NCBI GenBank assembly: GCA_019695095.1 | Contig: JAIBAQ010000053.1 | Span: 1-33,984 of the forward strand | DNA: 33,984 nt | Source: Candidatus Hydrogenedentota bacterium | GTDB taxonomy: Bacteria > Hydrogenedentota > Hydrogenedentia > Hydrogenedentales > SLHB01 | Direction: 5' to 3' | In this document: positions 20,318 through 25,727 of the stretch, one piece after another | How positions within the stretch are numbered: position 1 is the first letter of the stretch | Layout: every line of letters starts with the position of its first letter | Notes under the pieces: generated by a model | Seen by the model: only the letters and a program-made list of their open reading frames with translations | Databases searched by the model: none | Told to the model about the DNA's origin: nothing | Program-made: the position numbers and the translations under genes

Positions 20318-20333
20318 CGGTGTGATGTCCTAT

Positions 20334-20397
20334 CCTCAAAGTTTTGCACGTGAGCAATTTGTGCCGGCGCTCAATCGCGCCGGTGCAAATTGCGGAC
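20334..20397 (-). repeat. 64-bp hairpin repeat (partial copy of the 185-bp element)
   Basis: Read on the minus strand, this segment matches 25040-25103 with only four differences in 64 bp. It contains a strong hairpin built on CCGGCGC...GCGCCGG flanked by CAATTTG and CAAATTG. It occupies most of the 92-bp gap between the two membrane-protein genes. Confidence 0.9.
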
Positions 20398-20409
20398 TAT
20401 GCTATTGCG

Positions 20410-24413: not shown

Positions 24414-24489
24414 TGGAGGCGGCACCCGGACTCGAACCGGGGGATGAAGGCTTTGCAGGCCTCTGCCTTACCAACTTGGCTATGCCGCC
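24414..24489 (-). tRNA. tRNA-Cys (GCA anticodon)
   Basis: The acceptor GGCGGCA/TGCCGCC, the anticodon stem-loop GAGGC-CTGCAAA-GCCTT (anticodon GCA) and the T arm CCCGG-TTCGAGT-CCGGG fold normally. The discriminator is T, as usual for Cys, and the CCA is encoded. Confidence 0.97.
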
Positions 24490-24540: not shown

Positions 24541-24724
24541 TCCTGCGCTTTGCACCGGCGTTACAGCGCGTATACGCAAATTGCTCACGTGCAAGACTTT
24601 GAGTTTACGACTTGAGGATCAATCACGAACACATCCGGATTAAGATGCTGTGCTCCGCGTTTCACCGCAAGTCTCGCACTGGCACTGGTTACGAGACACG
24701 TTCGCGTGTATTCGCAAGAATACC
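24541..24724 (+). repeat. Diverged copy of the 185-bp element
   Basis: This copy is colinear with 25040-25223 at a constant offset of 499 bp. Shared blocks include GCAAATTGCTCACGT (24576), GACTTTGAG, ACCGCAAGTC (24664) and ACTGGTTACGAGA (24684), all at identical spacing, with mutations between them. Confidence 0.85.
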
Positions 24725-24889
24725 TAGCTTTCCCCATCCTATTGGGCGGCTATTTTACGCCCGAATCGTCTCGCTACTTGGCATAGCCGCCTCGTCCGAT
24801 GTGTCATCCCTAATTGCCTCAAGTAGTTGCGTGACGAAGAGTCAATTCCGAATATCCCGCAAATTAATTCCCAAAAATATGCATACTTG

Positions 24890-24898
24890 TGGTATACT
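24890..24898 (+). promoter_or_regulatory. Extended -10 promoter candidate
   Basis: TGGTATACT fits TGnTATAAT with one change and sits in an AT-rich stretch between the two element copies. The next gene downstream starts more than 400 bp away, so a long leader or a noncoding transcript would be expected. Confidence 0.35.
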
Positions 24899-25039
24899 AA
24901 ACGAAAGTTTGTTGTAGCCAAATCCTCACCCCGAAAGGGCTGGGGGTATGGTGCGCACTCACGGGGGTCGTGAGCGCTCGGTTCACAGCCATACGAATTG
25001 GGGGTATCGGCAAGAGACTATCCCGCGTGGAACCGTCTG

Positions 25040-25226
25040 GTCCGCAATTTGTACCGGCGCGATTGAGCGCCGGCGCAAATTGCTCACGTACAAGACTTTG
25101 AGGCTATGCCATGAGGATTTCTCGCGAACACACTCTGTTCTCGGAGAACCGCCTCAACTTAGACCGCAAGTCGTGCGAACGTACTGGTTACGAGATGGGT
25201 CCAAGTGTGTTCGTGAGAAATCCGGA
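25040..25226 (+). repeat. Best-preserved copy of the 185-bp structured element
   Basis: The first part (25040-25103) is the hairpin unit shared with 20334-20397. The second part is bounded by a 20-bp inverted repeat with one mismatch (25115-25134 and 25204-25223). The outer ends resemble one another in inverse orientation (GTCCGCAATTT and AAATCCGGAC). It has no coding capacity of its own. Confidence 0.85.
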
Positions 25227-25322
25227 CTAGGCGGAGTCTGTTCGATCGGCCGTGGAGCGGATCTTCCACAGGTACTCTGCCGGTTTGCAAAGGGTCCCAT
25301 TGGGACCAAGAGGTTCCTCACC

Positions 25323-25727
25323 ATGATTATGTTATCGAATCGCCCGCGATATGCCGTTTTGATTGGACTGCTGACTGCAGTCTGTGCGGTCTGGGCGTTT
25401 GCTGTCGCAGATGCTTTTGTAGGAGATCGCGAGCTGGAAAAGGTGGCCCAAAGCCGGATCCAGGAATGCCGCGATTTTGTGAAGAAATACCCGCGCAGCG
25501 CGATTGCCACCGATATCACCACGGCTCACGAGTACTTGCTGTTTGGCGACCGAACGGGCAAGGTTCGTATCTACACCAAGTACCGCGAATTCGATGGGCG
25601 TAACATTTACTCCGTCATCGACTACTTTTATGAAGAACGTGGAGACAGATGGGTACAGACGGAGAGTGCCAGCCTGCCGTCCACGTACCTCAAACAAGCA
25701 AAACGCGCGTTCGGCGACGAACTGTAA
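25323..25727 (+). CDS. Small exported or membrane-anchored protein of unknown function
   Basis: I do not recognise this 134-residue protein. It begins with a short basic segment and a hydrophobic helix (about residues 10-30) that ends in VADAF, either a signal peptide or an N-terminal anchor. The remaining 100 residues are soluble, with KYPRSAIATDITTAHEYLLFGDRTGKVRIY suggesting a small alpha/beta domain. The ATG at 25323 has AAGAGG about 9 bases upstream; an in-frame ATG two codons later is possible. It stands alone downstream of the repeat region. Confidence 0.75.
   Translation: MIMLSNRPRYAVLIGLLTAVCAVWAFAVADAFVGDRELEKVAQSRIQECRDFVKKYPRSAIATDITTAHEYLLFGDRTGKVRIYTKYREFDGRNIYSVIDYFYEERGDRWVQTESASLPSTYLKQAKRAFGDEL

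Follow-up and report, generated by a model that had tools for sequence, protein, structure and literature searches.

The repeat found in the window (the whole 33,984-nucleotide stretch of Candidatus Hydrogenedentota DNA that was analysed) belongs to a family of at least 130 copies dispersed singly over many contigs of its genome. In all likelihood it is a MITE-like non-autonomous DNA transposable element, mobilised in trans, that duplicates a 4-bp NTAR target and for which stop codons provide a safe landing place. The original prediction had allowed for either a MITE-like mobile element or a structured RNA; the number of copies, the duplication, the inverted ends and the deleted derivatives support the former, while the mutation patterns argue against the latter. 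Several features expected of a MITE were found together: the element is short, non-coding and present in many dispersed copies, it is flanked by a duplication of fixed length, and it carries terminal inverted repeats, although these are short and imperfect. The family is apparently undescribed, and it comes from a phylum known here from metagenome-assembled genomes only. The relationship to stop codons was not part of the original prediction.

Genome-wide distribution of the family

The genome searched is an assembly of 6.77 Mb in 405 contigs, approximately 95% complete. BLAST returned at least 41 matches in it (40 of 198 candidates were scored), and a 22-nt core of the element, allowing up to three mismatches, occurred 130 times whereas the reversed control did not occur at all. 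The repeat in the window is not due to chance. The set collected and modelled comprised approximately 131 distinct copies, some full and some partial, so that the absence of further copies, which had been named as grounds for abandoning the mobile-element proposal, does not apply. The 76 full-length copies have a median identity of 90% to their consensus; the most similar pair is 95.4% identical, indicating that the activity of the family is not recent.

The search of related genomes that had been suggested yielded no copies, neither among 59 relatives nor among 67 other genomes of the order. SJ475, a Candidatus Hydrogenedentota MAG and the closest relative with a name, gave nothing above background; one protein of the window is 84% identical to an SJ475 protein, in keeping with a position of the genome within Hydrogenedentota. 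The exact core had no match in 84,980 species genomes or among viral contigs, plasmids and phages, a search from which the element's own genome was possibly excluded.

Element structure and the copies in the window

In a full copy, approximately 186 bp in length, a spacer separates the left hairpin from a long right hairpin, and the ends are short, imperfect inverted repeats. In the consensus, the left hairpin is a 40-bp palindrome (GCAATTTGCRCCGGCGC...GCGCCGRCGCAAATTGC), the spacer holds the well-conserved sequences TCACGTGCAAGAC and TATGCCATGAG, and the long right hairpin (GGATTTCTCGCGAACACACT...AGTGTGTTCGTGAGAAATCC) has a variable apex. The terminal inverted repeats, YCCGCAATTT and YCCGG-ATTT, are near-constant across the 76 full copies.

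The best-preserved copy in the window (copy 2) is nearly full-length and lies on the plus strand at 25040 to 25226, supported by 204 bits against the nhmmer family model as well as by its repeats, inverted repeats and fold. Its site is intergenic, with a gene start 97 bp downstream at 25323. The left hairpin (25043 to 25083) is followed by the spacer and then by the long right hairpin (25115 to 25223), whose plus-strand 5' arm GGATTTCTCGCGAACACACT (25115 to 25134) is 95% complementary to the 3' arm at 25204 to 25223 (plus strand), which takes in the right terminal inverted repeat. This copy folds far better than shuffled sequences (z = -6.75 as DNA and -6.3 as RNA). On the plus strand it is flanked on the left by CTGG (25037 to 25040; gtc followed by TGGTCC), one change away from CTAG, and on the right by CTAG (25226 to 25229); both are assigned as target-site duplications, the right one on the strength of the NTAR pattern across the 76 copies.

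An older and degenerate copy (copy 1; 24546 to 24721, plus strand, 105 bits) sits upstream of a minus-strand tRNA-Cys (24414 to 24489), and its duplication is no longer recognisable. Copy 3, on the minus strand at 20325 to 20399 (72 bits), is a left-end fragment covering model positions 1 to 75, with ATAG as its left flank, and is placed by gene predictions between two minus-strand genes.

These data agree with the two colinear copies, the third minus-strand copy, the strong hairpin and the 20-bp inverted repeat originally described: 24549 to 24720 and 25048 to 25219 align at a constant offset of 499 bp in blocks of 72 to 76% identity, and 20325 to 20397 is an inverted repeat of 25040 to 25112, 90% identical over 73 nt. 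The similarity claimed for the two ends, GTCCG and CGGAC, held in part. The ends are indeed imperfect inverted repeats, but the boundaries of the element fall within the duplicated target, so that the first G of GTCCG, like the C of CGGAC, is part of the NTAG duplication. At times two copies seem to lie within a few hundred base pairs of each other, as at loci L095, L001 (24546 to 25225 of the window) and L013.

Target-site duplication

A check for target-site duplications had been proposed, and it gave a clear result. The base preceding the TA (position -1) was identical on the left and right sides at a rate of 0.79, compared with 0.27 after shuffling, and the base following it (+2) at 0.83 compared with 0.57; none of 2000 shuffles reached the observed identity at either position (p < 1/2000 each). 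Further out, left-right identity was at background level. Perfect 4-bp duplications were present in 40 of the 76 full copies and nearly all have the form NTAR, mostly ATAG (13 of the 40), GTAG (8 of the 40), CTAG, TTAG and CTAA. The assignment as a MITE-like non-autonomous element rests on these duplications and on the left-right match far above shuffled levels.

The TA at both ends had suggested an IS630-type element with a TA-only duplication, but the match of the bases flanking the TA rules this out. The 4-bp duplication likewise disfavours single-strand insertion of the IS200 type, which leaves no duplication. No orthologous empty site could be demonstrated at the nucleotide level; in the comparison with SJ475, a single gene could be aligned along most of its length.

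We propose that a transposase supplied in trans, presumably of the DDE type, would act on the hairpin-bearing ends and make a cut staggered by 4 bp at NTAR sites, in most cases NTAG, that would give rise to the duplication, which is established statistically. The two hairpin-forming ends would be the conserved cis-acting parts, the apex of the right hairpin would have diverged among source copies, and the copies would decay neutrally once inserted. More than a third of insertions lie exactly on the TAG stop of an upstream gene, in sense orientation and with the left end of the element facing that gene. The duplication of NTAG rebuilds the stop and leaves the gene unharmed, and it is this rebuilding that makes stop codons a safe landing place.

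Insertion at stop codons

Genes were called with a simple codon-usage score of our own, so that the absolute shares are approximate; by this measure, 35 of 97 copies have the stop codon of a coding sense-strand ORF exactly at the left junction (offset 0; 32 TAG and 3 TAA). Only seven other gene ends fall between -60 and +40 of that junction, and on the right side an antisense stop lies inside the duplication in only 4 of 79 copies. The longest ORF was in frame 0 for 46 copies and in frames 1 and 2 for seven each. A second, independent set of copies, picked by the right end, showed the coincidence in 7 of 17 rows, or 7 of the 16 that were new, one row having been counted already. In the same DNA, stop codons account for only 7.5% of permissive TAG sites, a background that the coincidence at the element clearly exceeds (p = 6e-16, taking approximately 80 copies to have an intact TAG). 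As a side observation, TAG makes up 85 of 210 stop codons among the background genes in the sample of loci from this genome, which seems high for approximately 58% G+C.

The upstream genes are complete. Their Pfam domains run to, or nearly to, the end of the profile in PdxJ, BacA, TsaD, the glycine cleavage H protein, an AMP-binding enzyme, an SDR, a PHO4 transporter and an enoyl-CoA hydratase. In most of 21 relatives PdxJ has its stop at the same position; nearly all homologues with a readable end terminate at codon 240, a few extend one or two codons further, and one additional locus (L199) is cut off. The element is absent from the DNA downstream of the relatives' homologues, so the insertion hit a natural stop codon. 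Random gene disruption as the source of the TAG stops is ruled out, with the other frames near-empty and the genes complete.

The excess over other non-coding TAGs could reflect either a preference for inserting at gene ends or the selective loss of insertions elsewhere. There is about an even chance that survivorship by itself explains this step, a proposal that concerns the stop-codon coincidence alone and leaves the identity of the element as a MITE untouched. Insertion would then occur at any NTAG, copies in genes, promoters and terminators would be lost, and those at stop codons would persist. The target motif is merely NTAG and no additional sequence motif was found at the stop-codon sites; moreover, genes carry hardly any insertions in their other two frames, which shows that purifying selection acts. 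With no extra signal and such obvious selection against disruption, survivorship must contribute. Other data weigh against it. The excess remains 5-fold against all intergenic TAGs and, when the comparison is limited to TAGs lying no more than 60 bp past a sense stop at similar gene ends, is smaller yet still significant (84% observed versus 57% expected, p = 4e-4). Nor do stop codons show any shortage of younger copies: when all full copies are counted, the younger ones are found there more often (p = 0.017), and among copies with a perfect duplication the shares of younger and older copies do not differ.

The younger copies, together with the underused TAGs just downstream, lean towards some preference for gene ends. 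That the machinery of the family has evolved a genuine preference for stop codons, or for the 3' ends of genes, through a transposase of an unrecognised type is a tentative suggestion that we consider unlikely on balance. If it is true, the preference is coupled to a 4-bp NTAG duplication that restores the stop, and the target choice of this mobile element, in sense orientation, spares both the upstream gene and the element itself. With its duplication length and target motif permitting harmless landing on stop codons, the family is an unusually clear case in which targeting versus survivorship becomes a testable question. It also calls for caution in annotation, as a hairpin repeat that immediately follows a stop codon may turn out to be mobile DNA and not a terminator or regulatory RNA.

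Transposase genes and comparison with REP elements

The original prediction also called for a transposase sharing the ends of the element, and none was present among the transposase loci found in the approximately 95%-complete assembly, which was checked for IS630 (DDE_3), DDE_Tnp_1 (PF01609), PF13546 (IS701-type), PF13586 and Y1_Tnp. The sole IS630-type DDE_3 gene (L065, contig C12:18276-18700) is split into two frames and its flanks are unlike the ends of the repeat. The sole DDE_Tnp_1 match is an intact IS1182-like gene of 482 amino acids (L128:1429-2877, contig C133), bounded by inverted repeats GAGGCTGTCTCACAATT and AATTGTGAGACAGCCTC that are unrelated to those of the element. PF13546 and PF13586 had no matches in the genome. 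Copies retaining only the right or only the left end were considered as possible remains of an autonomous partner, and all turned out to be truncated copies. The ends of a MITE commonly match those of its autonomous element, yet this is not obligatory, and partners can be lost. The cognate transposase may have been lost, may lie in an assembly gap or may belong to a family other than those searched.

Three Y1_Tnp genes are present in the genome, one of them RAYT-like (L069, contig C193:369-671) and close to a contig end. They raise the question of whether the repeat is a large relative of REP/REPIN sequences, moved at NTAG by a RAYT (an IS200/IS605-type Y1 protein) with no true duplication. 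GTAG-tagged REPs adjoin the 3' ends of genes and "often provide" the TAG stop of flanking ORFs, and the paper that describes them reports no duplications (PMC3733652). Our element resembles these REPs and REPtrons in having a TAG beside a palindrome, in its location at gene 3' ends and in supplying the TAG as the stop of the flanking ORF. However, REPs are 20 to 40 bp long and carry an invariant GTAG at one of their ends, whereas the element is approximately 186 bp with NTAG on both sides as a duplication and has no linked RAYT. The tags are in direct and not inverted orientation, and N is variable but equal on the two sides, which single-strand insertion after a fixed tetranucleotide would not yield. 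None of the three Y1 genes is flanked by the element. We therefore regard a REP/REPIN origin as improbable. The TAG overlap in GTAG REPs may nevertheless be one instance of a wider safe-site strategy.

Structured-RNA and recombination-site alternatives

A structured regulatory RNA or 3'-UTR element retained for its function, for example in stabilising mRNA, would suit the strong fold, the bias towards sense orientation and the position directly after stop codons; a role in mRNA stabilisation after stop codons has been proposed for REPs. The pattern of mutations points elsewhere and makes such a function very doubtful. Although the long stem contains 12 cells with compensated changes on both sides compared with 3.8 after shuffling, this excess fades once it is conditioned on both sides having changed: in the two main stems pairing was restored in 15 of 29 such cases, with approximately 43% expected from the mutation spectrum, in which transitions make up 59% of changes. 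Single changes in the stems have no bias towards preserving pairs or wobbles, as in the left hairpin (C>T 17 versus G>A 24; A>G 9 versus T>C 9). Private substitutions amount to 0.02 to 0.04 per site and are similar across stems, loops and spacer, and shared variation is concentrated in the apex; this is the combination expected if copies arose from several sources and, once inserted, decayed neutrally.

A lack of compensatory changes in the hairpins had been put forward as evidence against the original prediction. In substance there is no compensation beyond chance, and hence nothing to indicate that an RNA is under selection, a result that weighs against the RNA reading alone. Rfam contains no match to the element, the consensus has no terminator-like T run after the hairpin, and the family occurs in a single genome, being absent from the 67 relatives of the order. 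With no Rfam match, no excess compensation and no pair-preserving bias, a structured RNA family was rejected. An integron attC-type recombination site following genes, to which imperfect palindromes immediately 3' of stops in sense orientation might point, can be dismissed as extremely improbable, because attC R boxes are lacking at the ends (by eye), the copies are single and scattered over contigs with only approximately one third at stop codons, and variable 4-bp duplications flank them.

Comparison with other described elements

The MITE-like element can be compared with several described systems. IS5 targets published for E. coli are mostly CTAG, CTAA and TTAG (PMC5493358; PMC10359306). 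The family shares with IS5-type elements and their MITEs a duplication of 4 bp that is centred on TA and has R in the fourth place, but its first base is not limited to Y (NTAR and not the YTAR of IS5) and it has a strong sense-orientation coincidence with stop codons. Moreover, no IS5-type transposase was detected, PF01609 giving only the IS1182-like gene and PF13586 none.

Like the classical bacterial MITEs Correia/NEMIS, RUP and ERIC, the element is 100 to 190 bp in size, high in copy number, intergenic, palindromic and non-coding (PMC2229807). Those families have TA termini, and RUP has IS630-type ends (PMC2229807); the element has different ends and a 4-bp NTAR duplication. This duplication and the broken IS630 gene also set it apart from IS630/Tc1-mariner MITEs, with their TA duplication and IS630-type ends. 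YPAL/RU-2 of Yersinia, 168 bp long, similarly has internal inverted repeats and target-site duplications (PMC2229807), but these duplications range from 3 to 26 bp at dyad-symmetric targets, in contrast to the fixed 4-bp NTAR observed here. No described MITE with systematic insertion at stop codons was found in the open-licence literature.

Shortened and truncated copies

In a derivative of approximately 139 bp (L102, L052, L072, L037, L042 and L171), the apex is missing between two 8-bp AACACACT repeats, and the deletion junction is AACACACT joined to GGTTACGAG. The derivative was seen at several sites where the NTAR flanks match. These copies could be a mobile subfamily or could result from repeated slippage between the 8-bp direct repeats; they have few other diagnostic bases in common, which makes recurrent slippage possible. 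Separately, a truncated copy at L094:966-1042 seems to provide the ATG start of a downstream ORF beginning MSNEIEKLIQQTPFVDTHEHLWDE, which by eye is amidohydrolase-like.
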